Positions 2,202 to 41,450 of a stretch of 64,000 nt of DNA are shown here, in pieces. Positions within the stretch are counted from its first letter, which is position 1. The number at the start of each line of letters is the position of its first letter. The stretch is taken from NCBI GenBank assembly GCA_902774285.1, contig CACYHO010000001.1:266077-330076 (forward strand). Reading direction: 5' to 3'. A program made the position numbers and the translations under genes. The notes under the pieces were generated by a model. That model saw only the letters and a program-made list of their open reading frames with translations. It was not told the origin of the DNA and ran no database searches. Source of the DNA: an uncultured Pseudomonadota bacterium (GTDB lineage: Bacteria > Pseudomonadota > Alphaproteobacteria > Rs-D84).

Positions 2202-4400
2202 ATGACATTTCGTATAAATGCAAATTCTTGCAAAAATGCAATGGGAACAGTGTTCTTGTTGGCTGCTGCGTTTTTTGTATGTTCGACATTTATATCAATG
2301 CGTTCGGTATTTGCAGACCCAATTGCGCCTGCGAATACATTGCCACAACGCAGTGGTCGTCTTAGTCCGCGCGCAACAGCGAATAATCGTGCAAATACAG
2401 CGCGCACAACAGTATCTCGTGCAACAGTTACACCAACAACACAAGCTACATCAAGAACATCTGCATCCCGTGGAAATGTTTCAAACAGAACTGTAACCCC
2501 ACGCGGAAATGCTTCGGTTCGTTCAATTAATACAACACCAACAACTGCATCTCGTGGTGTAACAGCACGCAGCCAGGTTGCCACAAATGCGCGTTCAGAT
2601 CGTGCGGTTCGTGCAAGAACGGCTGACACACCATCGCGTGTAAGTGCTACTGGATCGATGATCACTGGTAATCGTGCCACGACGTATTCGTATTTAAGTA
2701 GCAGTTTATACACCGGTTCATATTCAAACATAATTGATTCGTCGACTGGTTTGATATCTGCAGATGCATATTCAAATTGTATGGAAAGTTATTACACATG
2801 TATGGACGAAGTCTGTATGGCAAGAAGTGATACCAAGGGACGTTGTTCTTGCGCTGGTCGTGCAACAAATTTCTTGGAAGCAGAAACTTTGTTAGAAAAA
2901 GCAAATGAAGAATTGATTAAGTTGTCTGGTCAATTATCACTTTTAATTGCTACAAAAGGTAAAGGTGACGATTTAGAATCAGCGTTTTCATTAACAGATG
3001 CCGAAAAAGTTATGAATTGTGTTTCATATAAAGAAACAATGAATCAGTATGGAACAGGTTCAAAAACGGCAGACAAGGAAAAAGTAAAAGAATGGTGTCA
3101 TTCACACGGTGTTTATGCAGATACTTGTGCACAGCCGGATTATTGTACAAGTAATGATTTTGGTTTTGATATCAAAAATATCGACGGTTCATCATCTGAT
3201 ATCTTGGCACAGTTGAAAGCATGGGCAGATGCAAAAGATTTGGCAAAACAATATACTACAGAAAATACAAATGATTTGTTAAGCCAGTATACAACACTTG
3301 CGGGTGTTATTAACGGAATGTCTGGAATATCTGTCACTGTAGATACAGATAAAGCATCTCTTGATTCGTTGGCAAACAAATGGGGTTACGATTTGTTCCA
3401 ATATGCTCACAATAATGTTTGCGGACGTGTTCTTGATTCATGCTTTAATGGAATTTATGAAGCGTGTGGAACACCAAAAAATATAACAGAAGACGGTGTA
3501 AGTGTTCGTATTAAATGTGCAAATGGTGCAACATCAAATTGTCCGTTTAATTACAACAGTTATATTTCTGTTGATACAACCACAGGTGAAGTTAAATTGA
3601 GTGATCGCAGCGACAGTTCTAATGCATCTATAAATTCATCTGCAGCATGTTTTGGCTACACTGGTTCATCAACAGTGACAACAACACGTTCTGGTATTAC
3701 AACCACAACAACTGATCCATATGCAACATTACGTGGACCGGTTGCTGATGCGCGCAGATCCATTATGCAAAAGTATTTGTTGGATGCAAATGCCGCGTGC
3801 GATGTTTATGGTGCACAATTAAAACAAACTGCACAAAACATCAATTATCAAAAGATTGCGGCAGAACAAGCATTGCAACAAAAACGTTTGGAATTCAAAC
3901 AAGAAGAAGAAGCGTCTATACTTTCTGACGCGACAACGGCAATTAGTAATTTCAACGAATGTATCGGTGAAATTTGGGACTGCTATGAAGAATATGCAGA
4001 TGAAGAAAATTGGACATCTGCGCGTATCAAAGCATACTGTGCCCAAATATCCCAGGTTCCACATTGTTATGAAACTATGATTTGTTCACCATTAAAAACA
4101 CAGTATGTTGCTGTTGTTGATAAGCCTGATTCACAATCGTGCAAAATGGTTGAAAATGGGGCAACATATGATTACAGAAAAGATACATGTCGTAATGTCG
4201 TAACAATAAGTGAAATCTTGTATGGTACTGGCGAAGAAGCAGCGGATGCAGGTGATACATCTGGAAAATCTGCCGCTATACGTGAAGCTTGCTTGCAAGA
4301 AGCACTTAATTGTGGCGATAGCGCTTTGTACTCTGACGAAGGTGGTTGTTTACGTAGATGGAGTAAATCAAATAAAACCGCCAGTAATAGTAACGATTAA
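2202..4400 (+). CDS. Large exported Cys-rich protein with C-x6-C segments (copy 1)
   Basis: A 732-residue protein of no recognised family. The N-terminus has a long hydrophobic export signal (about residues 17-38). About 120 residues of Arg/Thr/Ser/Val/Asn-rich low-complexity sequence follow. The Cys-rich core begins at Cys193 with the pattern C-x6-C-x4-C-x9-C-x-C (Cys193-Cys217), identical in spacing to the protein at 7730-10033. Further C-x6-C pairs occur at Cys407/414, Cys587/594 and Cys697/704, each inside a predicted amphipathic helix. An Ala/Gln/Glu-rich helical stretch lies around residues 540-580. The even Cys content suggests periplasmic or surface disulfides. The ribosome-binding site is AGGAGA. 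A terminator follows, so it is probably monocistronic. Confidence 0.8.
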   Translation: MTFRINANSCKNAMGTVFLLAAAFFVCSTFISMRSVFADPIAPANTLPQRSGRLSPRATANNRANTARTTVSRATVTPTTQATSRTSASRGNVSNRTVTPRGNASVRSINTTPTTASRGVTARSQVATNARSDRAVRARTADTPSRVSATGSMITGNRATTYSYLSSSLYTGSYSNIIDSSTGLISADAYSNCMESYYTCMDEVCMARSDTKGRCSCAGRATNFLEAETLLEKANEELIKLSGQLSLLIATKGKGDDLESAFSLTDAEKVMNCVSYKETMNQYGTGSKTADKEKVKEWCHSHGVYADTCAQPDYCTSNDFGFDIKNIDGSSSDILAQLKAWADAKDLAKQYTTENTNDLLSQYTTLAGVINGMSGISVTVDTDKASLDSLANKWGYDLFQYAHNNVCGRVLDSCFNGIYEACGTPKNITEDGVSVRIKCANGATSNCPFNYNSYISVDTTTGEVKLSDRSDSSNASINSSAACFGYTGSSTVTTTRSGITTTTTDPYATLRGPVADARRSIMQKYLLDANAACDVYGAQLKQTAQNINYQKIAAEQALQQKRLEFKQEEEASILSDATTAISNFNECIGEIWDCYEEYADEENWTSARIKAYCAQISQVPHCYETMICSPLKTQYVAVVDKPDSQSCKMVENGATYDYRKDTCRNVVTISEILYGTGEEAADAGDTSGKSAAIREACLQEALNCGDSALYSDEGGCLRRWSKSNKTASNSND

Positions 4401-4404
4401 AAAT

Positions 4405-4428
4405 AACCGCCCAAACGGGCGGTTTTTT
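4405..4428 (+). terminator. Intrinsic terminator
   Basis: The stem AACCGCCC/GGGCGGTT is followed by TTTTTT, directly after the stop codon of the first Cys-rich gene. Confidence 0.9.
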
Positions 4429-4496
4429 ATTTGTAAAAAACATATCTTGACCCTTTACACAATATCTTTTTTATGATAAAATTAAGCTTAAGAGAG

Positions 4497-6830
4497 ATGA
4501 ATAAATTATCGCGCATTTTGACAATAATGCTCTGTTTTGCGCCGGTTGCGTTTGCATCGGCGGGGCCTGTCGCGACAACTGCGGGTTCTAATTTAACTGC
4601 GTATAATCCAAGTAATGCAAATAATAACCAATGGGCGACGATGTCCAATGGTCGTTATGATGGCAATAATGGCACGGCAAAGGCTGATTTTGGAAATTGT
4701 AATGCATTGATTTTGCGTTGTGCGCAACCAAAGTGCGCAAATGGTGGTTGTACCGATATGGCTATTGCGAACGCGATAGTTGCAGGGTGTGTGCAATCTA
4801 ATTCATCATGTAAACAGTATGGTGATGATTTGGTTTCTTATATGTCTGCGCAATTGGTGGCATCATCTAATGCAAAGATAAACGCACAAAATGCGGCGGC
4901 ACAACAAGCGGCAGCGGCAGCGGCGGCGCAGCAATCACAACAACAAATGCAAGAAATGCAGTATCAGATGCAGCAAATGCAACAGCAAATGGCCCAGCAA
5001 CAGGCACAGTCGCAACAACAATTACAAGAAGCGTTGGCACAACAGGCTGCACAAAGTCAGGCTGCGATTGAAAATATGAAATCTGCGGCAACCACGGCGG
5101 CAATGGAAAATGAAGCCGGCATATCTGCATATCAACAAGACGCGATTAATCGTGGAATTTCGGCTGATGTTTTGGAACGTCAAAAAATTACTGGTCAAAT
5201 TATGACTGAAATTGAAAATGCCGAAGTGTCTTTAAAGGAAGTTAAAATCGCAATGAATTCTGCATTTGAATACGCAAAATGTGATGTGCGTGGTAATAAT
5301 TGCGATGGTCCAAAACGTGTAAAAAAATGGCGTGAATTGGCAACGGACTTTTTGGAACCTTATGACAGAACAATTGACAAAGTATATGATGCATTGGAAT
5401 TGGCACAGATTGTTGGTGTAAATTTATCCGACATTTACATGATGTTAAATAATTCATGTAATCGTTGGGGACAATATATGTGTCCACGTATGGAGGGCGG
5501 TGAAATCGATTATTCTGACTCTTCAAATAGTCAAAAGGGAACACCACGGGTTTGTACGGGTGGTTTTAAAATAGACGATAGTTGCGCAAGAGATTGTTGG
5601 GCCAACAATAGTTGTGATACTGAAGATTGTTCAAATAATCCAGTATATAAGAATTGTTTAAATAATAGATGCTCATATAAAAAAGTTGGGCAAAATTGTC
5701 AACCTTGCACATTGTTAAAAGTATTAAGTAATGCTGATGAGGTTTATGAAGGTTGGGTAAATGCGGAATACAGTACAAATACCGGTAATACAACAGTTGT
5801 TGCGTGTGCATCTGGTGCGCTTGATTCTTCTGCATTGTTTGCACGCAGAACAAAAAATAAAAACGGTGCCGGTTTGGTTGATATTGATAAATTGGATATC
5901 TGGTTAAACCAAAATGAACCCCGTAGAGTTTCGGAGCGTTCCGATATTAAACCTTGGGATTATTGTGATGCAAGTGGTTATGAAGATGTTCTTGAAAAAT
6001 CAATGTTAAGCAGGGTTGTGCCAGAAAAAAATGTTAAATTGTGCGTTGATATAACAGATAAAAAAGGTAGAGATGCTAAAAATCTACCAGAAGATTCTGA
6101 TTGTGGTTTTATAAATCCAATATATGCAATTTGTGATGCGCATCGTTATAATATTGGTAATCAAGAATTGGGTACCACGTTTGAAACAGAAGACGAAGCA
6201 AAAAGTCGTTGTATAAAAGAATGTAGCGATGAAAATTCTGTTGTATGCAGAAATCTTAAAGACAAAGACGACAGAGAGTCTGCTATTAAAAAATGTGCAG
6301 AAACTAAATTAAAGAAAACAGATGCTAGTGCGATGAAGGAAATGCTTGCGTTAAAGACAACTGTTATTTCACAACAGATGTACAAGCAATATGAATACCT
6401 TAATGCGACATTACGCAGATTAAAAACAATGCTTGAAAAGGCTACATTAACCGCAAACCTGGAAGCCGCCGGTGCAAAATCAGATGATGATTCGTCTTCG
6501 TCTGGTTTGTTGGGGTCTTCGTCAAGATCTTCACAATATCGTGATTGTTCTGGTAAAAGCAAACAAGGTCTTCTTGAATGTATGCGCGAAAACTATTCGA
6601 TTTTAGCTACACAGATTAAAACAAATAAAAAATGTGACAGATATGCCAAAGAACAATTAACCAATGCTGTAACAAAGTTGAAAAGTTTAACGAAGCTTGA
6701 ATTGGTTTGTAAGACAGATACTGTAAAAGCATGTGGAGATTGTTTGGATTCTTATGATACAGGCTTGTCAGAATTAGATAGTATAATCCTGAAAGAAGAA
6801 AGCGAACGCCGTGGTTATGGTAGATATTAA
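4497..6830 (+). CDS. Large exported Cys-rich protein with Gln-rich coiled coil (copy 2)
   Basis: A 777-residue protein of no recognised family. I start at the ATG of MNKLSRILTIMLCFAPVAFA, a clean signal peptide preceded by AAGAGAG. The ATG 24 bases upstream overlaps a -10-like TATGATAAAAT. Cys68, 75, 80 and 85 give C-x6-C-x4-C-x4-C, sharing its first three spacings with the two sister proteins. Residues of roughly 130-200 are an Ala/Gln/Met-rich coiled coil (repeated QQM, QQQ and QAAA). Cys-rich loops occupy the middle, followed by charged helical segments and a Ser-rich linker near residue 665. It is the longest member of the local trio and probably forms an extended, disulfide-stabilised periplasmic or surface structure. 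Confidence 0.78.
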   Translation: MNKLSRILTIMLCFAPVAFASAGPVATTAGSNLTAYNPSNANNNQWATMSNGRYDGNNGTAKADFGNCNALILRCAQPKCANGGCTDMAIANAIVAGCVQSNSSCKQYGDDLVSYMSAQLVASSNAKINAQNAAAQQAAAAAAAQQSQQQMQEMQYQMQQMQQQMAQQQAQSQQQLQEALAQQAAQSQAAIENMKSAATTAAMENEAGISAYQQDAINRGISADVLERQKITGQIMTEIENAEVSLKEVKIAMNSAFEYAKCDVRGNNCDGPKRVKKWRELATDFLEPYDRTIDKVYDALELAQIVGVNLSDIYMMLNNSCNRWGQYMCPRMEGGEIDYSDSSNSQKGTPRVCTGGFKIDDSCARDCWANNSCDTEDCSNNPVYKNCLNNRCSYKKVGQNCQPCTLLKVLSNADEVYEGWVNAEYSTNTGNTTVVACASGALDSSALFARRTKNKNGAGLVDIDKLDIWLNQNEPRRVSERSDIKPWDYCDASGYEDVLEKSMLSRVVPEKNVKLCVDITDKKGRDAKNLPEDSDCGFINPIYAICDAHRYNIGNQELGTTFETEDEAKSRCIKECSDENSVVCRNLKDKDDRESAIKKCAETKLKKTDASAMKEMLALKTTVISQQMYKQYEYLNATLRRLKTMLEKATLTANLEAAGAKSDDDSSSSGLLGSSSRSSQYRDCSGKSKQGLLECMRENYSILATQIKTNKKCDRYAKEQLTNAVTKLKSLTKLELVCKTDTVKACGDCLDSYDTGLSELDSIILKEESERRGYGRY

Positions 6831-6853
6831 TTTTGTTTATTGTTAGATTTAGA

Positions 6854-6876
6854 CGCCCGTATGGGCGGTTTTTTAT
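6854..6876 (+). terminator. Intrinsic terminator
   Basis: CGCCC-GTAT-GGGCG is followed by TTTTTT, after the second Cys-rich gene. Confidence 0.88.
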
Positions 6877-6913
6877 AGTGGACACAATGTCATTTTCAGC
6901 AAACGATAAAACT

Positions 6914-6990
6914 ATTTGCATAAAATTTTCGACAAAATGGTTGACTTTTGATATTTGTAATGTATAATTTGCATAAAATATTCGACAAAA
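6914..6990 (+). repeat. Pair of 24-bp direct repeats flanking the rplU promoter
   Basis: The 24-base unit beginning ATTTGCATAAAA occurs at 6914-6937 and 6967-6990 with one mismatch (T/A at its 14th base). The copies are 53 bases apart start to start, close to five helical turns. One ends just before the -35 and the other begins on the last bases of the -10. This arrangement suggests two operator half-sites, or a duplicated promoter segment. Confidence 0.75.
6941..6968 (+). promoter_or_regulatory. rplU-rpmA promoter
   Basis: TTGACT (6941-6946), a 16-base spacer and TATAAT (6963-6968). The expected start is near 6975, giving a leader of about 57 bases that contains the second 24-bp repeat. Confidence 0.85.
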
Positions 6991-7031
6991 CGATATTTTA
7001 AGTTAACAAATAAAACAAAAGAGAAAGTATA

Positions 7032-7331
7032 ATGGCTACATTTGCAATCTTTCAAACCGGTGGCAAACAATATCGTGTAACAGAGGGCGATATCGTAAAA
7101 GTTGAAAAACTGAATGCAACTGGTTCGGTCACTTTCGACCAAGTTTTAATGGTTGGTGACAAAGTTGGCACACCTTTGTTGGCTGGTGCAACTGTTGTTG
7201 CTGATGTTATCGAACAAAAACGTGATGATAAAGTTTTGGTCTTCAAGAAAAAACGTCGTCAAAACTATCGCAGAACTGCCGGTCATCGTCAGTACATCAC
7301 TGTTTTAAAAATTAAATCAATCAAGGCCTAA
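7032..7331 (+). CDS. rplU: 50S ribosomal protein L21
   Basis: A 99-residue protein with the L21 fold: the start [16 protein letters not shown], the central [12 protein letters not shown] and the basic C-terminal [15 protein letters not shown] that binds 23S rRNA. It is a structural protein of the large subunit. It heads the conserved pair rplU-rpmA, with 29 bases between the genes and a shared promoter flanked by direct repeats. The length is normal. Confidence 0.97.
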
Positions 7332-7360
7332 GGCAGACCCACAAACGAAGGAGTTTAATT

Positions 7361-7627
7361 ATGGCACATAAGAAAGCGGGTACCGCAACATCAAACGGAC
7401 GCGATTCAGCCGGACGCAGATTGGGTGTAAAGAAAAGTGGCGGTGCCCACGTTATCCCAGGCAATATCATCATTCGTCAACGTGGTACAGCTGTACATCC
7501 AGGATTGAATGTTGGTATGGGTAAAGATCATACACTGTTCGCAAAAATCGCAGGTATCGTCACATTCAAACGTGGCAACGGCGACAGAAAAACAGTTTCT
7601 GTTGTCTCAGATACCGAATCAAAATAA
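7361..7627 (+). CDS. rpmA: 50S ribosomal protein L27
   Basis: An 88-residue protein starting [20 protein letters not shown], the classic L27 N-terminus that reaches the peptidyl-transferase centre. There is no Firmicutes-type N-terminal extension needing cleavage. GGAG lies nine bases before the ATG. It is cotranscribed with rplU. The obgE gene that often follows in other bacteria is absent; the next gene is a Cys-rich exported protein behind a terminator. Confidence 0.97.
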
Positions 7628-7650
7628 TAACGAATTATTTTGTTGTTTTC

Positions 7651-7677
7651 ACCCGTCGTTTCGACGGGTGTTTTTTT
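7651..7677 (+). terminator. rplU-rpmA terminator
   Basis: ACCCGTCG/CGACGGGT stem followed by a run of seven T. Confidence 0.92.
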
Positions 7678-7707
7678 GTAAATCTGCTTTTTTTTAATGT
7701 GTTTTTG

Positions 7708-7716
7708 TGGTATAAT
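7708..7716 (+). promoter_or_regulatory. Extended -10 promoter (TGGTATAAT)
   Basis: TATAAT (7711-7716) preceded by TG-G, with no good -35. The expected start near 7723 leaves only about seven untranslated bases, although AAGGA lies just before the ATG at 7730. Confidence 0.7.
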
Positions 7717-7729
7717 TGTATCCAAGGAA

Positions 7730-10033
7730 ATGAGAAAGTTTTCGAGTATATTTTTCATGGTTGCTTTGTGTACCGCAAATGTTTTTGCGGCAGAGTCTTC
7801 TATATCCCGCGTAATTCCAAATAAAAATGCAAAAACAGAAGGTGTAGAACGTGTTGAAAATTCAACTGTGAAAAATCGTGGTGCTGTATCGCGTGGTGTA
7901 TCGCGTCCTGTATCTGTCACAAAACCAAGCGCAGGTGTTGTATCGCGTTCTGTGGGCAATAGAACAAATGTTCAACATGCAACATTGGAATCAGGTGTAA
8001 ATACTGTTGGTCGTAATGCACGAACAGATGCGGCGAGTATAAATAATACTGCAGCATTGCGTCGTGCCGGAATCACATTGCGTGCATCTACTGCAGAAGT
8101 TGGTGGCCGTGCAACAATTGGAAATACTGGTGTTCAAACCGGTTCTAATATCGATGAACAAGTTCGTGGAATTCAATCACGTGCATCTATATTTGGTGGT
8201 CAAAAACAACAAAAAACTGTTACTGCGGAATCTTTGGCCGAAGCAAAAGATATTTTGGAAAAAACTTCTGATTTGAACAATACCTGTCAGGCACAATATA
8301 ATGAATGTATGGATCAGTTTTGTGCTGTGGTAGACGCAAACCAAAAAAGATGTTCTTGTTCTGCAAATCTGGCAAAATATGCCAAGGCTCAAAAGGCGGT
8401 CGAAGATGCGAATGTTGAATTGAATGATGTTGCGCAAAGGATTCGTTATGTTGGACTTTCTGCAGACGAAATTCGTGCAATTATGTCTGCAACAGAAGCA
8501 GAATTAGAAATGGGTAAAACAAAAGATAATACCCAAACACGTTCTATGTTGGATGATATTGCAGATATGATCAAAGATCCAACTTCGTCAACAATATTGA
8601 CTGGATCTGCAACGACAGATTCTTTGTTGGATATGGATTTAGATTTTTCATCTGATTCGTCTGATATGTTTTCGTTAGATATGTTTAATTCATCCGGTGG
8701 TGACATTTCTTCCAAGCGTGGGAAGGCGCTTTATAACGAAGCAAAAAAACGTTGCAAAACCGTGTTGAATCGTTGCAAGGATGCCGGTGGCATAGAAGAT
8801 CAAATTTCAGGTAATTATGATTTGGCGATTGATAAAGATTGTGTTGCCTATGAACAAGGTTTAATCAAATTAAACCAAACATTAACTAACAATGTGCGCA
8901 GTGCTAATTTGATGTTACAAAAAGCACGTTTGGCTGTTCTGCAAAATAAAAACGAATACGATATCAAAGAATGTGTTGGTGCACTGGAAAAATGTATGTT
9001 GGATGATATGGTTTGTGGTGATGATTATGTAAAGTGTTTGGATCCAACCAAAAAATATATCGATGAAAATGGTACTGTTGTGTTGGGTAAAAATATCGCA
9101 AATATAACAGCATTCTTGAATGATCCGTATGGTATAACTGAAAACAGTTATAACAATACAAAGATAAACGGTGATTTTATTAAAAATTCTGCGAACGATA
9201 CTATGTGCAGTACGCATGATGGCTCTTGTGTTGTTAATTATTTGATGAAAAAGATCGGAACTGGTGCGACTGTCAAAGACGGGGGGCTTTGTCGTGCTGT
9301 GTTGGATAAATGTCAAGATTACACATATAAACAAACTGGAAAGACTGCAACATACGATCCGTATAATGAAGTTGTTATAAATTATATTCAACGCGCTATG
9401 GTCAATATCAAAGCGGCCCAAGCAAGAATCATTTCCGATTATGCATCAAGTTGTATGTCAGATGTTCGGGACTGTTATAATCAACAAAATACACAAATTA
9501 CTTCTTGGACGTCGGCGGCATCAATCGACAATATCTATAAAGTTATGACAGGTGCTTGTTATAATGTTGCTTTGACCTGTGGTTATGCTGTGTTCGCATA
9601 TGACAGCGATATGGGAACAAAAATAAGCAATATAACGTGCGAATCTATTGGTTGTGGTACAACAGCCCAAGATGGCACGTGTCCTACAAATTCTTGTACA
9701 GGATTGTTGGAATCCAAAAGACAGAACGAGTTGATAAACGGAATATCTGAATTGTTCTATCAATCATTATTGTGCCCAGAAAAATCTTCGTTTGATGCGA
9801 CTTATCGTGAAATTAGTCCAAATAGAACAATAGAAGGTTATGTAAATAATCATTGTAAATGTTACAGCGGATATACTGTATGGGGTGGGACTTGTGTAGC
9901 AAGTTGTGCATCAAGCGAATATAGAAATGATTCTGGTGTATGTAAAGCATGTGCAACGGGGACAGAATTATCAGGTGGAGATACCGATACAGAACCAAAT
10001 GCGTGTGTGGATGTTTCTGTCAGTGCACCTTAA
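7730..10033 (+). CDS. Large exported Cys-rich protein with C-x6-C segments (copy 3)
   Basis: A 767-residue protein of no recognised family. I start at ATG 7730, which follows AAGGA and begins a signal peptide (MRKFSSIFFMVALCTANVFA). An ATG at 7697 lies upstream of the -10. An Arg/Val/Ser/Asn-rich low-complexity region follows to about residue 165. The core opens at Cys186 with C-x6-C-x4-C-x9-C-x-C, the same spacing as the gene at 2202. C-x6-C pairs recur at Cys342/349, 415/422, 521/528 and 575/582. The last 80 residues are a compact Cys-rich EGF-like tail (HCKCYSGYTVWGGTC). It is probably secreted or surface exposed and disulfide-linked. Confidence 0.8.
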   Translation: MRKFSSIFFMVALCTANVFAAESSISRVIPNKNAKTEGVERVENSTVKNRGAVSRGVSRPVSVTKPSAGVVSRSVGNRTNVQHATLESGVNTVGRNARTDAASINNTAALRRAGITLRASTAEVGGRATIGNTGVQTGSNIDEQVRGIQSRASIFGGQKQQKTVTAESLAEAKDILEKTSDLNNTCQAQYNECMDQFCAVVDANQKRCSCSANLAKYAKAQKAVEDANVELNDVAQRIRYVGLSADEIRAIMSATEAELEMGKTKDNTQTRSMLDDIADMIKDPTSSTILTGSATTDSLLDMDLDFSSDSSDMFSLDMFNSSGGDISSKRGKALYNEAKKRCKTVLNRCKDAGGIEDQISGNYDLAIDKDCVAYEQGLIKLNQTLTNNVRSANLMLQKARLAVLQNKNEYDIKECVGALEKCMLDDMVCGDDYVKCLDPTKKYIDENGTVVLGKNIANITAFLNDPYGITENSYNNTKINGDFIKNSANDTMCSTHDGSCVVNYLMKKIGTGATVKDGGLCRAVLDKCQDYTYKQTGKTATYDPYNEVVINYIQRAMVNIKAAQARIISDYASSCMSDVRDCYNQQNTQITSWTSAASIDNIYKVMTGACYNVALTCGYAVFAYDSDMGTKISNITCESIGCGTTAQDGTCPTNSCTGLLESKRQNELINGISELFYQSLLCPEKSSFDATYREISPNRTIEGYVNNHCKCYSGYTVWGGTCVASCASSEYRNDSGVCKACATGTELSGGDTDTEPNACVDVSVSAP

Positions 10034-12900: not shown

Positions 12901-14187
12901 TTATTTTTTCTTTGCTAATGCACTAAATACTTTACCACCAAATCCTTTGATGTTGTTCCAAAGTGTTTTCGAATCGTTCTTTAATTGTTCGCCAAATGAA
13001 TTATCAATTTTTCCACCAATATCTGTTGCCAGTTTATCTGATTGTCCGGCCATATAGAATATTAGTGATGCACATAATATGGTTGTCATTGCAGAACCAA
13101 CGGCATAAGTGTTTTGTCCACTGACAGATACGATATTTGTTAGCAGTGCCGCACATATAGCAATTACTATTGCAAGTGATACAAAATATATTGTGGCATT
13201 TATAAATACAGATATAACATCAGATATTTTTTTAGCGCTGAATAATTTTAATAAACCACTGTATATTCGACCTGGAATGTTTTTATCATCAGAAGTTGCA
13301 GGCATTGCTTCTGCAAGGGCTGTAAACGGCAACATTAATAATGTTAAAAACAGATTCGCGACAACACCCAATGTCATAAATGCATATTTGAATATGCAGC
13401 CAATAAACAGAACTATGCAAGCGGCACCAACAACAACCATTGTTGCGCTTTTTCCAAAACCGTTTATCATCCATTCAAATGCAGCGGCAGTTGCATGATA
13501 AAAATATACAGAAAGACGTGCAGGCAAACACATAATATTCGCGGCCGCATCAGCGTTTATTAAAAGTTGATCTGATGTGTTTGCGTTAACATATTGGTGT
13601 ATTGTCGCGCATGTGTCAGGTATATTCACATTATATGCCTGCGCAACCGCATCAAGAATGAAATCTGAAAGATATACACCGACTGATATAATCGGGGTTA
13701 TAACCAATGTAAATAATTTAGCAGGACCATAATTTAATATTATTACCCATACTGCGATAGTTATACCTTTGATAAATACATCGTATAAAACTTTTTTGTA
13801 ATCTGTCGATTCGCGAATCATTTTATATGCTTCCAACCCAACCCAAAATACATACATAAGGAATAAAAATAGAATCGTGAAGCGGACCAATGAATTTTGC
13901 AGAATTGTATCAATAGAAGAAAGAGCCTTCATAAATACTAAACCAATTTTAACTTCTATTGGGATAAAATTTTTATCATGAAGATTTGTTTGAAAAGTTT
14001 GTTGGAAACTTTTTGCATCGCTTTTTAAACCAGAATTATATTGTTCCATATTGTCGACTGTTATCCAATTTCCATATTCGCCAATATCACCATATGGAAC
14101 ATTCCCAGCCGCATATGAAGCGCCGACAAGTGCAGTTGCACAAAAAATGCAAATCAATAAATATTTTAAAATTTTGCGAATTTGCAT
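12901..14187 (-). CDS. VirB6/TrbL-like polytopic membrane protein (cluster member 5)
   Basis: A 428-residue protein. The N-terminus is a signal-like segment ending in SYAAG, followed by a periplasmic stretch of about 70 residues and six or more long hydrophobic segments. The organisation and the C-terminal cytoplasmic helix (KNDSKTLWNNIKGF) match its operon mates. Topology and the Gly/Pro-containing transmembrane helices fit the VirB6/TrbL group, which forms the inner-membrane channel platform of type IV secretion systems. Sequence similarity is diffuse, so the assignment rests on topology and the five-gene arrangement. It is last in a tight four-gene operon, one base after its neighbour. Confidence 0.6.
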   Translation of the reverse strand: MQIRKILKYLLICIFCATALVGASYAAGNVPYGDIGEYGNWITVDNMEQYNSGLKSDAKSFQQTFQTNLHDKNFIPIEVKIGLVFMKALSSIDTILQNSLVRFTILFLFLMYVFWVGLEAYKMIRESTDYKKVLYDVFIKGITIAVWVIILNYGPAKLFTLVITPIISVGVYLSDFILDAVAQAYNVNIPDTCATIHQYVNANTSDQLLINADAAANIMCLPARLSVYFYHATAAAFEWMINGFGKSATMVVVGAACIVLFIGCIFKYAFMTLGVVANLFLTLLMLPFTALAEAMPATSDDKNIPGRIYSGLLKLFSAKKISDVISVFINATIYFVSLAIVIAICAALLTNIVSVSGQNTYAVGSAMTTILCASLIFYMAGQSDKLATDIGGKIDNSFGEQLKNDSKTLWNNIKGFGGKVFSALAKKK

Positions 14188-14188
14188 T

Positions 14189-15649
14189 TTATTTTCCTTC
14201 TTTAATTTTATCTCGTACTTTTGTGTAAATATTTACTGGTGCGTTATAAACAGTTTTTCCAAAATCTTTTATCCATTGCCCATAATCAAAAGGTTCTTTG
14301 CTTGTCGATCCAATTAATTTATCAATCTGTGGTGAAACAATCCAGAAATATAGTATGAATACGCCCAACATAAACAACAAGAAGTCAAAGCCATCATCCA
14401 TAAAATCGAATGCACCAGGATATTTTTGTTCGACCAGATTTTTTTGTGTTTTAAAACATGCTGTGAATTTTTCTTTGTTCATTTCGCCATTAATCAAAGA
14501 TACGCGTTCACAAGTAGAAAATACATTCATTACAGACATAGTTTTTGCATCCATGTTTTCTTGTTTTACCGTGGACATGAACGGTGGCAATATGCTTGTA
14601 AAATTATCTTCTGGGCCTGGGTAATATTGATCGGCTGCAAAATATACAACTGCATAAATAATGGTTATTTTTAAACTTATTTTTAATATATCTATTACAG
14701 AGTTAAGTAATTTGTCTACGGCTGAGTTTAGTAATCCTTTGGCTAAGCTCCATACCTGTTCAAACGCAGCGGCCGCAATCAACAGTGGCATAAATATAAT
14801 GATAAATATTAATTTAAAGAACACACTTAATATTTGGAATAATAAATCAAATCCCATTACCAAGAAAAGTATCACCAGTGCAAGCCCTGCGATCCATGTG
14901 AACACACCGCCGGAATGATCATTCAAATCAAGCCACGAATAATTCATTAATGCGAACCCGCCACCAGCGCCCGCCAACATTACAGTATTTAAATTACCCA
15001 TAACACACATAAATGGATGAAGCACAGGTGTTAATATATCTTCCGCTTTATCTGTAGTTTCCGGTATTTCACATTTCACACCACTTATGACACCTGTCGC
15101 CATCATTGAAAGATTTGATCCAAGATACAAAACAGGTGTAACGGTGACATTTGTTACTGCTTTTAATGTTGTTGTGCCTGACCAATTTAATGCCCCAATC
15201 AATGCACCAGCAATAAGAATACGCATACCTGTTTTCCATACTTTTTCAAACCATTTTTTGAAATCGAGTTTTATTTCTTTGTCTGACAGGTCTTTGATAT
15301 CTTTAGATTTTGCTTGTTCATTAATAAATTGGAAAGTATGTGATATTATAAATATACCAAAACCAATTGCCATAAGTATCCACAAATTGTGGACTATACC
15401 ATTCCAGAACATTTCTGTTGCGCGTCCAAGAACAGCAAATAAATCCCCAATATAAGAGCATAAAAAGCATCCGTTGACAGACGATACATCGCCATTACCT
15501 GTGCCAATTTGCTGCATAAAAGCATCAACGCTGGTATAAGAAAGAGACGCGCCACCAATAGAACTGCTGAGATACCAAATACCGACCCCCAACGCAATTG
15601 CGCCCATTAAAAGTTTTAGTCCTTGTTCTATCAGCCACTTTTTTATCAT
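14189..15649 (-). CDS. VirB6/TrbL-like polytopic membrane protein (cluster member 4)
   Basis: A 486-residue protein with an N-terminal membrane segment, then NGCFLCSYIGDLF (Cys61, Cys64), the CxxC block shared with two other members. A cytoplasmic charged loop (KDIKDLSDKEIKLDFKKW) separates the first helices from a large block of very hydrophobic segments. A periplasmic loop of about 100 residues with three Cys follows, then a final helix and a charged tail (QWIKDFGKTVYNAP). It fits a VirB6/TrbL-type inner-membrane protein. Third gene of the minus-strand operon, five bases after the preceding one. Confidence 0.6.
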   Translation of the reverse strand: MIKKWLIEQGLKLLMGAIALGVGIWYLSSSIGGASLSYTSVDAFMQQIGTGNGDVSSVNGCFLCSYIGDLFAVLGRATEMFWNGIVHNLWILMAIGFGIFIISHTFQFINEQAKSKDIKDLSDKEIKLDFKKWFEKVWKTGMRILIAGALIGALNWSGTTTLKAVTNVTVTPVLYLGSNLSMMATGVISGVKCEIPETTDKAEDILTPVLHPFMCVMGNLNTVMLAGAGGGFALMNYSWLDLNDHSGGVFTWIAGLALVILFLVMGFDLLFQILSVFFKLIFIIIFMPLLIAAAAFEQVWSLAKGLLNSAVDKLLNSVIDILKISLKITIIYAVVYFAADQYYPGPEDNFTSILPPFMSTVKQENMDAKTMSVMNVFSTCERVSLINGEMNKEKFTACFKTQKNLVEQKYPGAFDFMDDGFDFLLFMLGVFILYFWIVSPQIDKLIGSTSKEPFDYGQWIKDFGKTVYNAPVNIYTKVRDKIKEGK

Positions 15650-15654
15650 TTATC

Positions 15655-16842
15655 TTATTTCTTTTCTTCTGTTTCTTTTTTTACACTTTCTGGATTAATA
15701 ATTGTTTTTGCCAAATCTTTTGTTTTTTGTGCGACAATTTGTGTCAATTGTAATACATTTTTGCCCATTTCTGTTGAAAGCGCATCTTCTTGTTTGATGT
15801 TGAATACAGATAATATTTTTTCGGTTATTTTAGGAATTTGACCTGCGATATAATTTATTACATAAACCAACACTATTGCGCCGGCAAATGTTATTTGCAT
15901 TGCGCTGGAATTTTCAAGATCAAAATCAAACAAAGATTCCGTTGTGTTTTGTATTGAATCTGCGTTAACACCATTTGCATCTAAGAATCCACGTATAATT
16001 AGCATGATAACCGTATATGTAAGAATTGTAGAAGCAACCGATACGATAGCATTTATTAATTTTTTTATTTGCCCACCACCAAGGTTTGATCCAAGATTTT
16101 TCATCCATCCAGGAATATCTGATGCGCCCCTGAATATAAATAACACAACAGATAAAGGGAAAAAGAATGCAAACATTGCCATTGCGAAAATAACATCCAT
16201 AAAACAAAACGAATATTTTATGAATAATTTTACAAAATTATATGTTAAAAATATCCCAATAAAACAAATAATAATGTGTTTGATAAGTGTGCCGATACCA
16301 AGCAAGGCTTTTAAAGTGAACGCTTCGTCTATAATCGCAATTCCTATTTTGATGTATACTTGGAAATTGGCTATGCTTGTTTCAAGAATCTGTATAATTG
16401 TATCGCGTAACTGCGGATTAAAGAATCCGTCATTACCAAGTTGGATTGCATTTTCATATGCAGGAATTACATAATCAGATGGCAACATAGCCTTTGAATA
16501 TTGTAATGTCATTATGGCCGCTGGTTCGAAAGTTATCATTGAAATAAAACGCGGAACGACCAATCCCATTCCCAATAAACTGATCGCAATTAACGATTTT
16601 ATTAATACCGGTCTAAGATTTTTATCAAACAAAGAATCTTTGCCACCGTTTTTAATATTTTCCCATGCAACATTTGTAGCATAGAAAGCAAACAAAACAC
16701 CAAATATAACCAGACTGAACAAACACAATCGTTGATATGCAGCTGCCGCTGTATTAGAGATTATAGCAAACAAATTGTCAAATACTGGACAAGTCCAACA
16801 TTGGATGCTGCTGTCTATTAAAGAGTTTGCCAATTCTTGCAT
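15655..16842 (-). CDS. VirB6/TrbL-like polytopic membrane protein (cluster member 3)
   Basis: A 395-residue protein. It has no signal peptide but opens with QCWTCPVFDNLF (Cys15, Cys18), nearly the same as SCWTCQIFSDVM in the divergent gene at 18216. Six or seven hydrophobic segments follow, with amphipathic loops rich in Ile, Asn and Lys, and an acidic/basic tail ending KKETEEKK. The CxxC block just before the first membrane span is the best sequence evidence that these genes are paralogs. Probable role: inner-membrane channel component of a type IV secretion-like apparatus. Second gene of the operon, three bases after the first. Confidence 0.6.
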   Translation of the reverse strand: MQELANSLIDSSIQCWTCPVFDNLFAIISNTAAAAYQRLCLFSLVIFGVLFAFYATNVAWENIKNGGKDSLFDKNLRPVLIKSLIAISLLGMGLVVPRFISMITFEPAAIMTLQYSKAMLPSDYVIPAYENAIQLGNDGFFNPQLRDTIIQILETSIANFQVYIKIGIAIIDEAFTLKALLGIGTLIKHIIICFIGIFLTYNFVKLFIKYSFCFMDVIFAMAMFAFFFPLSVVLFIFRGASDIPGWMKNLGSNLGGGQIKKLINAIVSVASTILTYTVIMLIIRGFLDANGVNADSIQNTTESLFDFDLENSSAMQITFAGAIVLVYVINYIAGQIPKITEKILSVFNIKQEDALSTEMGKNVLQLTQIVAQKTKDLAKTIINPESVKKETEEKK

Positions 16843-16845
16843 TTG

Positions 16846-18147
16846 TTATTTCTTTATTTTGTCTTTGATCCCAATAATGTTTTTTATTGTATCTGGTGTT
16901 GATTTGACTTTGCCCCATAAAGTTTTTGCATCACCCATTACATTGTTGTACAAATCGCGCGATGTGCCTTTTGTATACAAATCTAATCTGTCGCGTGTCA
17001 TTTTGAATATGTTTTGCATTAAAAAGAATGTTAAAAGCGCAGATATCCACAATATAGAATGTTGACCAAAATTCATTGCACTATTTGTAATAGATGGAAT
17101 GTTTGATGTGGAAACGCCGCCGGCAGATACAACAAATACAGATGAAGACCAATTAAACAATGCACGCACAACCGCTATGTTTACACACAGTATAAAGGCA
17201 CATGCAATCATGGTGATAATTAAATTCTTTAACGCGTCTATGATTTGTGAAAATGCTGGCAGAACATCAAACCACTTATCAGATTTTTTGGCAACCCAGG
17301 CCAACACATTAAATGGATACATAATAAGCGATAAACAAAAATCAAATATTGCCTGTATAATCAATAATGCCATAAAAACATTCGCTGATATGAACGCAAA
17401 AAGTAGTAAGATACCGGTTATTATATTTAATAAATCTTCACCGCCGTGTGGTATTAGTGTCATCATACTACGAAAACCTTTTTTCAGAAAATCAAAACCA
17501 TATTTAATAACCTTGTTGTTTTCTTGTGAAATTATATAAACAGGTTTAACCAAGAAATCACAACTGCGTTTTGAAATCCATCCAGATTCTTCAATGGAAG
17601 CTGGACATACGGGCGCTTCGGCAGTATCAATTTTTGAATTGTTAATATTCACAAGAATTTGTTCTGTGTAAAAAGAACCAAATTCCAAGAACGGATTTAC
17701 CAACCATTCTGTTACATAAACAGGTTTTATTTGTAACAAAAATACCCCGGCAATAATAGCGCGAACACAAGGTTTTAAAACGTTTTCAGATATTTTCCAT
17801 GCGTCTATTTTCTTTTCCCACATTTCGCCGCCGTCTGAAAAGCCTAAAAAAGACAACCAATCTTTTGGAAAATGCATTTTGACAAGATATAAACCAATGT
17901 AAAACCCAAGGAAAGCATAGATGAATATGTAAATTATTCCTGTTCCGTTACCAACAAAGAAATTGTATAGAGATGTCGCGATATTCATCATAGTTTCTAA
18001 CACAAGCGGAACAAAAGGTGCCAGGTTATAAGCATCAAGAATATCTGCATGTGCAGAATTTGTAAATAAAGCACACAAAACAAACACCCCAAACAAAGTT
18101 TGGGCGCGACCAAACAAGCGCAATATCACAGGTTTTTGTGTGTGCAT
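16846..18147 (-). CDS. VirB6/TrbL-like polytopic membrane protein (cluster member 2)
   Basis: A 433-residue protein. A basic N-terminus and hydrophobic segment end in NSAHA, a likely signal peptide. A glycine-containing membrane pair follows (NFFVGNGTGIIYIFIYAFLG), then a cytoplasmic loop with WEKKIDAWK, further membrane segments and the C-terminal helix MGDAKTLWGKVKS. That helix closely resembles KNDSKTLWNNIKG in member 5 and KNDLNIIWENLKK in member 1. It is first in the operon. AAGAGAGA precedes the ATG, with an extended -10 (TGATATAAT on the minus strand, -10 at 18180-18175) upstream. Confidence 0.6.
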   Translation of the reverse strand: MHTQKPVILRLFGRAQTLFGVFVLCALFTNSAHADILDAYNLAPFVPLVLETMMNIATSLYNFFVGNGTGIIYIFIYAFLGFYIGLYLVKMHFPKDWLSFLGFSDGGEMWEKKIDAWKISENVLKPCVRAIIAGVFLLQIKPVYVTEWLVNPFLEFGSFYTEQILVNINNSKIDTAEAPVCPASIEESGWISKRSCDFLVKPVYIISQENNKVIKYGFDFLKKGFRSMMTLIPHGGEDLLNIITGILLLFAFISANVFMALLIIQAIFDFCLSLIMYPFNVLAWVAKKSDKWFDVLPAFSQIIDALKNLIITMIACAFILCVNIAVVRALFNWSSSVFVVSAGGVSTSNIPSITNSAMNFGQHSILWISALLTFFLMQNIFKMTRDRLDLYTKGTSRDLYNNVMGDAKTLWGKVKSTPDTIKNIIGIKDKIKK

Positions 18148-18174
18148 TCTCTCTTTTTATTTTTTATATATTGA

Positions 18175-18208
18175 ATTATATCACATTTAACATAATTTGT
18201 GGTATAAT
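18175..18208. promoter_or_regulatory. Back-to-back promoters of the VirB6-like locus
   Basis: The minus strand has TGATATAAT with its -10 at 18180-18175, and the plus strand has TGGTATAAT with its -10 at 18203-18208. Both are extended -10 elements without good -35 boxes, and their cores lie 22 bases apart. The plus-strand start is predicted at about 18215, one base before the ATG, so that transcript would be leaderless. Confidence 0.6.
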
Positions 18209-18215
18209 TAAAATT

Positions 18216-19508
18216 ATGAAAGCATTAAAAAAATTTTGGGTGTGGTTTGTTGCGATGTTACCATTTTCTTCATGGGCGGTTTCGCCGTTGGTAATTGGTG
18301 GGGCGGCTGTCGGGGTTGGTATTATCGGTGTTTCAGTATGGCGAACTGTTGCACCGGTTGATATGAAAGATGCGCTTGATTTCTTCACATCATGTTGGAC
18401 ATGTCAAATTTTTTCAGATGTTATGATTTCTATGTCTGATTTGTTGCCAAAGGTTTATTCTGCGTTGGCACGCGTTGTGATACCAATGTCGGCAACATTG
18501 TTAGCATTATTTATTGCTTGGAATTTCCTTTCAAATGCACTGAATAACAAGATGGACAGCGCATCAAAGATAATGGGACATTTTGGAACACATGTATTTA
18601 GATTAAGTGTTTTGATTATATTACTGTTATTACCTTTGCCCAGATTGATAACGAATGCATTGGTTGAACCTGCGCTGGTTATAGGAACATCTTTCGATTA
18701 TGTGGTTTCTGATAATAATAAGTTTTCAGAATGTATGGTTGCGACAGCAATAGCGGATCCTGTAAGCATATCGGCGGACGCATCGGCTTATGGTGCTTTT
18801 TCTCCAAAGTTAAGACACCAATTGGCTTGCGAGGTGGCAAATGTTCATCAAATAACAGGATTGGGTATGACTGTTGGTTGGACAATGATGAATATGGCTT
18901 TTAATTCAGATTACATGCATAAAATATTAGCCAATGTGCCGATATTTCCAAATATTCCAATCTTTTTTGTCGGGCTTTTGATATTGGTTTTGTTCTTTTA
19001 TGCTCTTTTACCGATACCGTTATATTTTTTAGAGATATTTGTGACATTATCATTAGATTTAATAATGTTGCCGTTAATGTTGATGTCTTGGATGTTTGAT
19101 GATGAAGATTTTGCTTTGTTCCCAAAAGGCGGTAAAACGATTCGCCAAATGATAGACGATGTTATAAAAGCCGTGGTTGGAATTGCTTTGACTGTGGTAT
19201 TTTTGACTTTCTCTATAATGTTTCTTAACGCTGCATTTGGCAGTTGGCAAGGTGCAAATATTTTACAGCAAGCAATTATTAATAACGATTCGAAAATATT
19301 GATGGATGGCTTGGTTTTCCATAATGACAGCCTTATAACTGTCATTTTAATGGGTATATTCATTGCTATGTTTATGACCATGATTCCACAGTTAACAAAG
19401 ATGCTTTTCAATATTCAAATATCGGATAAATACTATCAGACAGCGAAAAACGATTTAAATATCATATGGGAAAACCTTAAAAAATGGGCGTCAGCAATAA
19501 AAAAATAA
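18216..19508 (+). CDS. VirB6/TrbL-like polytopic membrane protein (cluster member 1, divergent)
   Basis: A 430-residue protein read away from the other four. The start is ATG 18216, predicted at the very 5' end of the mRNA; an ORF extension to 18138 runs through the promoter. A hydrophobic N-terminus (FVWFVAMLPFSSWA) and a second segment precede SCWTCQIFSDVM (Cys60, Cys63). Several membrane spans follow, then a loop with MFDDEDFALFPKGGK and the terminal helix KNDLNIIWENLKKWASAIKK. It shares the CxxC block and tail with members 2, 3 and 5. Probable inner-membrane channel subunit of a type IV secretion-like machine. No VirB4, VirB8-11 or VirD4 gene lies in the window. Confidence 0.62.
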   Translation: MKALKKFWVWFVAMLPFSSWAVSPLVIGGAAVGVGIIGVSVWRTVAPVDMKDALDFFTSCWTCQIFSDVMISMSDLLPKVYSALARVVIPMSATLLALFIAWNFLSNALNNKMDSASKIMGHFGTHVFRLSVLIILLLLPLPRLITNALVEPALVIGTSFDYVVSDNNKFSECMVATAIADPVSISADASAYGAFSPKLRHQLACEVANVHQITGLGMTVGWTMMNMAFNSDYMHKILANVPIFPNIPIFFVGLLILVLFFYALLPIPLYFLEIFVTLSLDLIMLPLMLMSWMFDDEDFALFPKGGKTIRQMIDDVIKAVVGIALTVVFLTFSIMFLNAAFGSWQGANILQQAIINNDSKILMDGLVFHNDSLITVILMGIFIAMFMTMIPQLTKMLFNIQISDKYYQTAKNDLNIIWENLKKWASAIKK

Positions 19509-39392: not shown

Positions 39393-39424
39393 AAAACCGT
39401 CCTTTTGGACGGTTTGTTTTTTTT
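39393..39424. terminator. Bidirectional intrinsic terminator
   Basis: AAACCGTCC-TTTT-GGACGGTTT with A-run before and T-run after. It ends the methyltransferase gene and the convergent arginine operon. Confidence 0.9.
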
Positions 39425-41450
39425 ATCGTGCTTGTGTTTGGACCAGGGAAGATTTGATTATTTCTAATGCTTTCTTCAATGTAACCAAAGGGATATTCAA
39501 TGCAGGAAGTAATCTTACTTTGTCTTTTGCTGTTAAACAAAGAACGCCTTGTTCCATACATTGTTTTACAACTTCTGCTGCGGTTTTATGTGCTGGTTTA
39601 ATACCAACCATCAAACCGATACCAGATATTTGTTCAACATTTGGATCGTTTTTGAAAAATTCTTTGATGAATTTTCCTTTTTGTTTTACTTCATCAAGCA
39701 TTTTTTGATCGATTCTTTTGACAATTGAAACCGCACCCGCCGCTGCAACAGGGTTTCCACCAAATGTTGATCCGTGATCGCCAAATGCAAAAACATCTTT
39801 TACTTTTTCACCCAACATTGTTGCACCCATAGGCAGACCACCAGCAAGACCCTTGGCCGTGCTGACAATATCTGGTTTAACACCGTAATTCATATAGGAA
39901 TAAAATTCCCCGGTTCTGCCATTACCAGTTTGAACTTCATCTACAATTAAAAGAATATTGTTTTGTTTGCAATAATCTTCGATTGCTTTGACATATTCTT
40001 TTGGCAAGACATTTACACCACCTTCGCCTTGGATACATTCAATCATAATGGCGGCAGTTGTTTTTGGATCAACTGATTTTAATTCTTTGATATCACCAAC
40101 ATGAATATGTTTGAACCCTTGTGTCAAAGGTTGGAAAAGTTCATGATAATGTTCTTGTCCTGTGGCGGCCAATGTTGTTAATGTGCGTCCATGGAAACCA
40201 TTCCAAAGTGTGACAATATTGTAACAAGCGGCACCTTTCTTTTCGCTTGCATATTTTCTGGCTGCTTTGATTGCGCATTCATTTGCTTCGGCCCCAGAAT
40301 TAGAAAAGAACACTTTGGACATACCTGTTTTTTTGGTTAACAATTCTGCCAATTTTGCACATGGTTCTGTGTAATAAAGATTGGAAGTATGTTGCACCAA
40401 ATGAATTTGTTCTGTGATTGCGTCTTGCCACATATCATCACAATAACCAAAACTTGTTACACCAATTCCGGTTCCCATATCAATATATTGTTTACCTTGA
40501 TCATCAACAGCAATTGAACCTTTGCCTGAAACGATAGTTACAGGAAATCTGTTATATGTTGATGCAATATATTTTTTATCCATTTCTTGAATGTTCATTT
40601 TTTTATCCTTGGTAATAGTTGTTCCTGTTCCTTTATCTGCCATTAATTCTTTAAGAATTGAATGTGGAACACGTCCATCTATGATGGCGACATTATTAAC
40701 ACCTGCATTAACGGCTTTCACTGCACATTCAACCTTTGGTATCATGCCACCAGAAATTATTCCGTCTTGTTTCAAATTCGCAGATTCCGAAACAGAAATT
40801 TCAGAAATCAGTGTAGATGGATCATCTTTGTCTTTTAATATTCCGGCAATGTCGGTCATCATAATTAATCTTTCTGCGTTCAATGCGCCCGCGATATAAC
40901 AAGTGGCGGTGTCACCATTAATGTTATAAGCATTGCCTTTTTCGTCTGCGCCAATTGTTGAGATTACAGGTATATAACCTTTTTCGATTGAATCAAGGAT
41001 AATTTGTGGATTGACTTTTGCTACATCGCCAACAAAACCCAATCTTTCATCTTTTTGTTTGCACATCAAAAGACCGCCGTCCATACCAGACAAACCGATT
41101 GCTTTGATGCCGTTTTTATTAAGTAGATTTACTAAACCTTTGTTCACTTTTCCGGCCAAAACCATTTGAACGATATCAACAGTTTCTTTATCTGTGACAC
41201 GCAACCCATCAACAAATTCTGGCACCTTGCCAAGTCTTTCCATCAAAGAATTTATTTCAGGACCACCGCCATGAACCAAAACAACCTTTACCCCCATGGA
41301 CCACAACAATGAAATGTCTTCCATGACCTGTTGTTTTAATTCTTCGCTTTTCATGGCATTACCGCCATATTTCACAACCACTATTTTATCTTTATAGCGT
41401 TTAAGATATGGCGATACCTGTTTTATAATTTCTGATTTATCTGTATTCAT
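39423..41450 (-). CDS. argBD: ArgB-ArgD fusion: acetylglutamate kinase and acetylornithine aminotransferase
   Basis: One 675-residue ORF covers two arginine enzymes. Residues 1-284 are a complete N-acetylglutamate kinase: VVKYGGNAMK, LVHGGGPEIN, YNINGDTATCYIAGAL and GGMIPKVECAV. From Met285 (MNIQEMDKKY) a complete PLP-dependent acetylornithine aminotransferase follows: SNSGAEANECAIKAARKY, WNGFHGRTLTTLAATG, LLIVDEVQTGNGRTG and STAKGLAGGLPMG with the PLP lysine. The joint lies in a run of seven A, directly after an AAGGA that could act as a ribosome-binding site for a separate ArgD. One A fewer would give a normal ATGA overlap of two genes. Third in the operon argC-argJ-argBD. Confidence 0.9.
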   Translation of the reverse strand: MNTDKSEIIKQVSPYLKRYKDKIVVVKYGGNAMKSEELKQQVMEDISLLWSMGVKVVLVHGGGPEINSLMERLGKVPEFVDGLRVTDKETVDIVQMVLAGKVNKGLVNLLNKNGIKAIGLSGMDGGLLMCKQKDERLGFVGDVAKVNPQIILDSIEKGYIPVISTIGADEKGNAYNINGDTATCYIAGALNAERLIMMTDIAGILKDKDDPSTLISEISVSESANLKQDGIISGGMIPKVECAVKAVNAGVNNVAIIDGRVPHSILKELMADKGTGTTITKDKKMNIQEMDKKYIASTYNRFPVTIVSGKGSIAVDDQGKQYIDMGTGIGVTSFGYCDDMWQDAITEQIHLVQHTSNLYYTEPCAKLAELLTKKTGMSKVFFSNSGAEANECAIKAARKYASEKKGAACYNIVTLWNGFHGRTLTTLAATGQEHYHELFQPLTQGFKHIHVGDIKELKSVDPKTTAAIMIECIQGEGGVNVLPKEYVKAIEDYCKQNNILLIVDEVQTGNGRTGEFYSYMNYGVKPDIVSTAKGLAGGLPMGATMLGEKVKDVFAFGDHGSTFGGNPVAAAGAVSIVKRIDQKMLDEVKQKGKFIKEFFKNDPNVEQISGIGLMVGIKPAHKTAAEVVKQCMEQGVLCLTAKDKVRLLPALNIPLVTLKKALEIIKSSLVQTQAR

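Follow-up and report, generated by a model that had tools for sequence, protein, structure and literature searches.

An order-restricted family of cysteine-rich, probably exported proteins in gut Alphaproteobacteria and its possible connection to a chromosomal type IV secretion system

The window analysed here is a stretch of 64,000 nucleotides (contig CACYHO010000001.1 of assembly GCA_902774285.1, positions 266,077 to 330,076 of the forward strand) from an uncultured alphaproteobacterium of the lineage Rs-D84. Close to its start lie three large open reading frames (ORFs), p1, p2 and p3, whose products begin with signal peptides as predicted from hydropathy and inspection by eye. A first-pass annotation had regarded them as a trio of exported proteins built on recurring pairs of cysteines seven residues apart (C-x6-C); the three ORFs proved to be real and all of the cysteine positions quoted for them correct. 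The genes and features at this locus are as follows.

2202-4400, plus strand: p1, 732 residues, signal-peptide-type N-terminus; member of the p1/p3 family (hereafter the p family), orthologue group 1
2268-2777, plus strand: leader of p1 (residues 23-192); disorder predicted by analogy with the p3 leader
2778-2852, plus strand: signature of p1, C-x6-C-M-D-x2-C-x9-C-x-C (Cys193-217)
4497-6830, plus strand: p2, 777 residues, signal-peptide-type N-terminus; a family separate from that of p1 and p3, and one ORF here
7032-7331, plus strand: rplU, ribosomal protein L21 (Pfam PF00829), which separates p1 and p2 from p3
7361-7627, plus strand: ORF that by eye resembles rpmA (ribosomal protein L27), between rplU and p3
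7730-10033, plus strand: p3, 767 residues, signal-peptide-type N-terminus; nine C-x6-C pairs, and a cysteine-rich C-terminal part predicted as strands
8285-8359, plus strand: signature of p3, C-x6-C-M-D-x2-C-x9-C-x-C (Cys186-210)

The longest ORFs start at 4473 for p2 and at 7697 for p3; the length of 777 residues given for p2 is that of database entry P0121. Here and below, the gene names lpxD, fabZ, rpmA, argJ, uvrD and exonuclease were assigned by eye.

Comparison by BLASTP, alignment and tree placed p1 and p3 as paralogues in one family. The idea of a trio did not survive, as p2 is unrelated to them: there is no BLASTP match between p2 and either protein, and a profile comparison (hhalign) gave a probability of 7%, over 22 columns of the signal peptide only. 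Since p2 is not a copy of p1 or p3, the spacing of its Cys68/75/80 has no homology behind it. A search of 190 genomes of the class with p1 matched three, the window's own (G000, 77% complete) and two congeners, at five places each; the matched places hold five family genes in G000, six in G068 and six in G188, scattered over the genome in what by eye are largely the same gene neighbourhoods across the three. These genes form six paralogue groups, each a separate clade in the tree (support 100/100 for p1, D, E and F, 98/90 for C and 84/99 for p3; rows from other bacterial families drew long-branch warnings). The alignment of 17 rows from these six groups, all from the window's genus, has 22 invariant columns, 13 of them cysteines spanning p3 residues 186-617. 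The pattern C-x6-C-x4-C-x9-C-x-C, which had been noticed in p1 and p3, was confirmed as the signature of the family: its five cysteines (p1 193-217, p3 186-210) and eight further ones are invariant in 17/17 rows, and it can be written CxxxxxxCM[DN]xxC...CxC. The signature is variable in other bacterial families, where the pattern fails to match several rows.

A profile search of alphaproteobacterial genomes showed that the family recurs. Within the order the profile matches 137 of 142 genomes, namely 124/124 in the window's bacterial family and 13/18 in other families (at most seven candidates were scored per genome, and matches per genome are not gene counts); in a class-wide sample, where no more than three candidates per genome were scored, it matches 4/289, every one of them in this order. 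Outside the window's family, the frames open at the matches are 244 to 1,006 residues long, and in several stretches the members are arranged in rows. In one such set of rows (L210-L211, which includes L210:7862-10018), a member has a glycine-zipper segment at its end (Gly-zipper model of Pfam, 23.9 bits against a cut-off of 27); others (L219, L221 and L223) stand beside an ORF profile-related (9e-15) to one in L028 that resembles, by eye, a prepilin peptidase. A protein search with p1 found 1,188 relatives among 7,992 scored proteins, of which 120 were listed. Places matching p1 in named genomes numbered 177, of which 80 were kept; many are from rumen or gut samples by title, and two carry the name Candidatus Enterousia.

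The family has no Pfam or NCBIfam match above cut-off, and p1 and p3 have no match to a PDB sequence at E <= 1. One paralogue gave a DUF5039 hit that, at 21.7 bits, stayed under the cut-off of 25 and was not used, and PF09479, precomputed for one (P0087) of the 120 listed relatives of p1, has no match in p1 itself. Three genes near paralogue D (L028; 298, 364 and 568 residues) were considered as family members and rejected. Literature searches on Rs-D84, on Enterousia secretion and on cysteine-rich type IV secretion returned no title or abstract opening on this family, within a coverage that mostly excludes subscription papers. The suggestion of an undescribed repeat family holds in so far as Pfam, NCBIfam, PDB sequences and Foldseek gave no match within the cut-offs used, but not as to repeats, given that self-BLASTP of p1, p2 and p3 at E <= 1 detected no repeat within any chain. 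We are almost certain that the p family, cysteine-rich and restricted to this order, exists as described. Two genes upstream of paralogue E, each of the three genomes read encodes a small protein containing a CAVC or CPVC motif (L018:7705-8223, L025:6705-7262, L027:8148-8663), possibly a redox partner; the one scanned had no Pfam match at E <= 0.1.

The recurrence of C-x6-C pairs claimed for all three proteins could be upheld for two of them: p3 has nine pairs, including 422/429, 429/436, 493/500 and 610/617 in addition to those first listed, against 1.4 by chance (0/20,000 shuffles), and p1 has four against 1.0 (P 0.016, shuffles), but the three pairs in p2, against 1.5, are no significant excess (P 0.20). 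Across the family the excess is pronounced, with 29 pairs against 6.3 expected in the five proteins of G000, 35 against 8.4 in the six of G068, 35 against 8.0 in the six of G188 and 74 against 15.6 in 11 proteins from other families (0/2,000 shuffles each). These full-length counts take in a few N-terminal pairs; without the first 40 residues the figures are 29 against 6.3, 35 against 7.9, 34 against 8.1 and 72 against 15.8, respectively, again with 0/2,000 shuffles each. The C-x6-C spacing is thus four to five times commoner than chance across these sets, and the spacings 3 and 4 occur less often than expected. The form C-x-x-x-hydrophobic-x-x-C was borne out as well: position i+4 is hydrophobic in 79% of the pairs in G000, 77% in G068 and 72% in other families, against a background of 26%.

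Cysteines at i and i+7 with a hydrophobic residue at i+4 make up one face of a helix. No bond can form between two cysteines separated by two helix turns, so those of a C-x6-C pair would bridge to other helices. The distribution of cysteines among the paralogues fits pairing between different C-x6-C segments, as far as six groups may indicate: Cys 342, 415 and 528 are jointly absent in p1 and present in the five other groups, and Cys 422 and 521 co-occur only in groups p3 and C. A DSBA homologue is encoded in 8/8 genomes searched.

The predicted model of p3 has a mean predicted local distance difference test score (pLDDT) of 69.5 and a predicted template modelling score of 0.47. From residue 331 on, the ten-residue pLDDT means lie between 68 and 94, except for 58 at residues 591-600, and blocks at residues 411-450 and 541-580 reach means of 90-94. 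This region is modelled as mostly helical to about residue 680 and then as strands in the cysteine-rich end. The segments C186-193, C415-422 and C575-582 are entirely helical, C342-349 and C610-617 are so in all but one residue, and 429/436 and 521/528 over six of eight residues. Foldseek returned no match to the model at E <= 0.001; the spectrin, CorA and receptor folds that came up are all weak matches, and a missing fold match shows nothing. The Arg/Ser/Thr-rich leader remarked on at first pass lies between signal peptide and core: in p1 its residues 23-192 include 20 Arg, no Lys, 28 Ser and 28 Thr, and the net charge is +15 in p1 and +10 in p3, with the remainder of the protein acidic (-25 and -20, respectively). 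Low pLDDT in the p3 leader predicts disorder there and, by analogy, in p1.

Taken with the cysteine pattern, the model makes it probable that p1 and p3 are disulfide-braced helical scaffolds. Exported by way of their predicted signal peptides, they would fold into a mostly helical core in which each helix face carries two cysteines, and DsbA-type oxidation would join these to neighbouring helices; the outcome would be a rigid envelope scaffold whose C-x6-C helices are held together by disulfides, and the cationic leader may anchor the acidic core to wall, lipopolysaccharide or a further copy.

Whether such a scaffold serves a secretion system turns on the genes around it. In the window's genome VirB3, VirB4, VirB8, CagX/VirB9 and TrbI/VirB10 are found above the Pfam cut-offs, VirB3 together with VirB4, and VirB8 together with VirB9 and VirB10 in a group that starts 3.5 kb beyond the end of the window. 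VirB4 occurs once in 7/8 genomes and, in other families of this order, once in 17/18; TrbI/VirB10 occurs once in 8/8. VirB10 has a gene of its own and, in the four genomes examined, contains a C-x6-C pair once or twice. Following virB4 in one stretch is a 204-residue protein (L133:7811-8425) that has no Pfam match and no NCBIfam match above cut-off; of the 20 stretches with virB4 that were read, several being incomplete, 12 hold a relative. Downstream of p3, the window holds five genes for membrane proteins that may belong to the same machinery, listed here with the gene that adjoins p1 on its other side.

1449-2003: PagL-type lipid A deacylase (PF09411), adjoining p1
12901-14187, minus strand: m1, multi-pass membrane protein, possible VirB6-like paralogue, without Pfam match
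14189-15649, minus strand: m2, multi-pass membrane protein, possible VirB6-like paralogue, without Pfam match
15655-16842, minus strand: m3, multi-pass membrane protein, possible VirB6-like paralogue, without Pfam match
16846-18147, minus strand: m4, multi-pass membrane protein, possible VirB6-like paralogue, without Pfam match
18207-19508, plus strand: m5, multi-pass membrane protein, possible VirB6-like paralogue, without Pfam match; longest ORF from 18138

The products of m1-m5 (12901-19508) have 5-7 hydrophobic segments each by hydropathy, and contain cysteines. Profile comparisons gave probabilities of 96 for m1 with m4, 98 for m3 with m5 and 84 for m2 with m5, and the m5 profile also matches m4 (E 5e-6); these matches tie the five into one related set, possibly a VirB6-like one.

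p2 represents a second conserved family, with 1,321 relatives among 7,994 scored proteins (120 of them listed). It is present in 20/21 genomes searched of the window's bacterial family (G188 is the one without it) and in 0/8 from other families, so that we rejected a local insertion in the window's lineage as its origin. A single ORF in the window and in some relatives, p2 appears as two adjacent ORFs (p2N and p2C) in 11 of the 19 neighbourhoods read outside the window, or in 13/19 with two whose second piece showed only in a genome search. A link to secretion comes from G284 (L208), where virB8-virB9-virB10-p2N-p2C follow on one strand with no intervening gene; in G220 and G268, virB genes share the strand and a 20-kb stretch with p2. 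Judged by this neighbourhood, p2 is likely to be a component of the VirB8-VirB9-VirB10 machine. Its structural model gave no useful fold match, all being weak. A TFIIA hit (E 2.8e-4, 21.4 bits, cut-off 36.2) falls on a Gln-rich low-complexity stretch and was rejected; the same domain is also among the precomputed annotations of a number of relatives listed for p2. Near p2, with one ORF between, some loci encode another protein of 1,037-1,052 residues with 36-38 cysteines (L200:8099-11212, L201:2381-5539, L203:3130-6243, L204:2301-5429), which neither family profile matches.

For p1 itself, 82 loci were available, many of which end early at contig ends or at the flank limit. The expected recurrence of all three genes together was seen in just 12 of them, which indicates scattered paralogues and not a three-gene cassette. 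Downstream of p1, p2 is found in 18/82 loci, with a gap below 1.5 kb in 17 (one of them beyond rplU) and of 5.5 kb in one; upstream, in the order p2N-p2C-p1, it is found in 2/82 (L071 and L094). In one genome of the p2 set (G235, L241) p2 lies 1.5 kb from a p-family member. The gene m1 shares the locus with p1 in 42/82; the block is downstream everywhere but in L070, which has it upstream of p1. The PagL-type deacylase gene is present in 54/82 p1 loci. As ties between p1/p3 and secretion, the p2 and m1 neighbourhoods provide weak hints only.

Our preferred explanation, which we hold tentatively, is that p1 and p3 are disulfide-braced helical envelope scaffolds accessory to the predicted chromosomal type IV secretion system. 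p2 would belong to the VirB8-VirB9-VirB10 machine, and p1 would act beside p2 and the five VirB6-like proteins m1-m5; the step that joins p1 and p3 to the same machine as p2 is possible, and distinctly less secure than the scaffold itself. A number of observations weigh against this explanation. None of m1-m5 has a PF04610 (VirB6/TrbL) match at E <= 1 by hmmscan, for which reason their VirB6-like nature stays a reading, and PF04610 is found in 0/8 genomes at E <= 0.001. The synteny from p1 to m1 also includes the unrelated rplU, exonuclease-like and uvrD-like genes and is for that reason weak evidence. No p-family gene was found in the virB3-virB4 stretches read, and four genomes of other families (G195, G205, G209 and G213) have VirB4 and no detectable p-family member. 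Around p2, 16 of the 19 neighbourhoods outside the window had no virB gene, only two hold a p-family gene, and a commoner neighbour is an lpxD-like gene (8/19, by eye). As for the scaffold, the quality of the p3 model as a whole is only moderate, and of the nine p3 pairs it places two, 422/429 and 493/500, mostly outside helix. Lastly, p1 and p3 are conserved less than their housekeeping neighbours (median identity over 39 loci 49% for p1 and 47% for p3, as against 65% for the uvrD-like gene and 78% for the exonuclease-like one).

A surface protein, too, would show this lower conservation, and p1, p3 and their paralogues might be adhesins or fibres that grip host or prey, with the helical core as stalk and the cysteine-rich C-terminal part as tip; we consider this unlikely. 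The cysteine-rich envelope proteins of Chlamydia form a disulfide-linked lattice, and p1 and p3 could likewise be general stabilisers of the envelope with no tie to secretion. The paralogues are indeed spread genome-wide beside genes that by eye resemble housekeeping genes, the rows of family members in other bacterial families have no virB gene nearby, and a cationic leader and an acidic core could self-associate; p1 and p2, however, adjoin in two different orders, and the rod-shape and peptidoglycan genes reported for this group lead one to expect a wall (PMC12306168), and we judge a general stabiliser somewhat less likely still than an adhesin. Very unlikely, finally, is that p1 and p3 leave the cell as substrates or effectors of the type IV system: they occur in several copies, are restricted to the order, are less conserved than their neighbours and coexist with a chromosomal type IV secretion system, but their signal-peptide-type N-termini suggest that they enter the periplasm by the general route, and neither Pfam nor NCBIfam reveals an enzymatic domain above cut-off.

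The scaffold accessory to a secretion system has a partial parallel in CagY, the single VirB10-type protein of the Helicobacter pylori Cag type IV system, which, in the sections of the papers available, is described as having A-motif tandem repeats of 38-39 residues and many regularly placed cysteines in a helical array, modelled disulfides joining, within each repeat, one short helix to one long one (PMC10706595; PMC2581425). CagY sits on a type IV system and resembles the structure predicted for p1 and p3, on those same sections, in the regular cysteines on its helices; p1 and p3, in contrast, are separate genes with no PF03743 (VirB10/TrbI) match in genomes where TrbI has its own gene, and have no tandem repeats within the chain (self-BLASTP, E <= 1). 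They resemble CagY in principle and are not members of the CagY/VirB10 sheath. The Helicobacter cysteine-rich proteins with Sel1-like repeats, as far as the accessible text goes, have disulfide-bridged helix pairs (PMC2581425) of the kind predicted for p1 and p3, but ten family members scanned had no Sel1 Pfam match, and the PDB sequence search at E <= 1 was empty. The Rvh system of Rickettsia, as outlined in the accessible part of its description, is a chromosomal Vir-type system in scattered islets with five VirB6 paralogues (PMC2653234); the window's genome is alike in having chromosomal Vir-type islets and five possibly VirB6-like proteins in a reduced alphaproteobacterial genome, whereas the Rickettsia VirB6 proteins match PF04610 and m1-m5 do not, and nothing like p1 or p3 was seen in that part of the paper. 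To this comparison may be added a search result for p1, p2 and p3, none of which matches the Pfam families of TraN or TraU at E <= 1. TraN and TraU of F-type systems are large, exported, cysteine-rich transfer proteins that stand beside a type IV secretion system.

Elsewhere in the window, a single 675-residue ORF (39423-41450) resembles, by eye only, an acetylglutamate kinase fused to an acetylornithine aminotransferase, and is followed by argJ- and argC-like genes, likewise read by eye.

The small-genome bacteria of this group lack much of their metabolism, and intercellular connections have been proposed for them, with hypothetical membrane-bound proteins for transport or contact and no type IV secretion system named (PMC12306168). 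It is in this group that the p family has been kept; in G068, six family ORFs of 717-1,090 residues fill about 15 kb of a genome of roughly 0.9 Mb. At its widest, and here we are speculating on something we think rather improbable, the proposal would extend to a whole order of gut Alphaproteobacteria in which a chromosomal type IV secretion system is ringed by at least six disulfide-laddered paralogues, an independently evolved equivalent of the CagY sheath, along with the p2 family and five VirB6-like paralogues. If true, this would be an expanded secretion system of an undescribed type, and these nutrient-dependent bacteria might use it to reach partner cells. The arrangement of cysteine, hydrophobic residue and cysteine at i, i+4 and i+7 offers a simple motif for designing helices braced by disulfides, and two uncharacterised families of likely envelope proteins, one of them next to the VirB8-VirB9-VirB10 genes in one genome, provide concrete genes to test.
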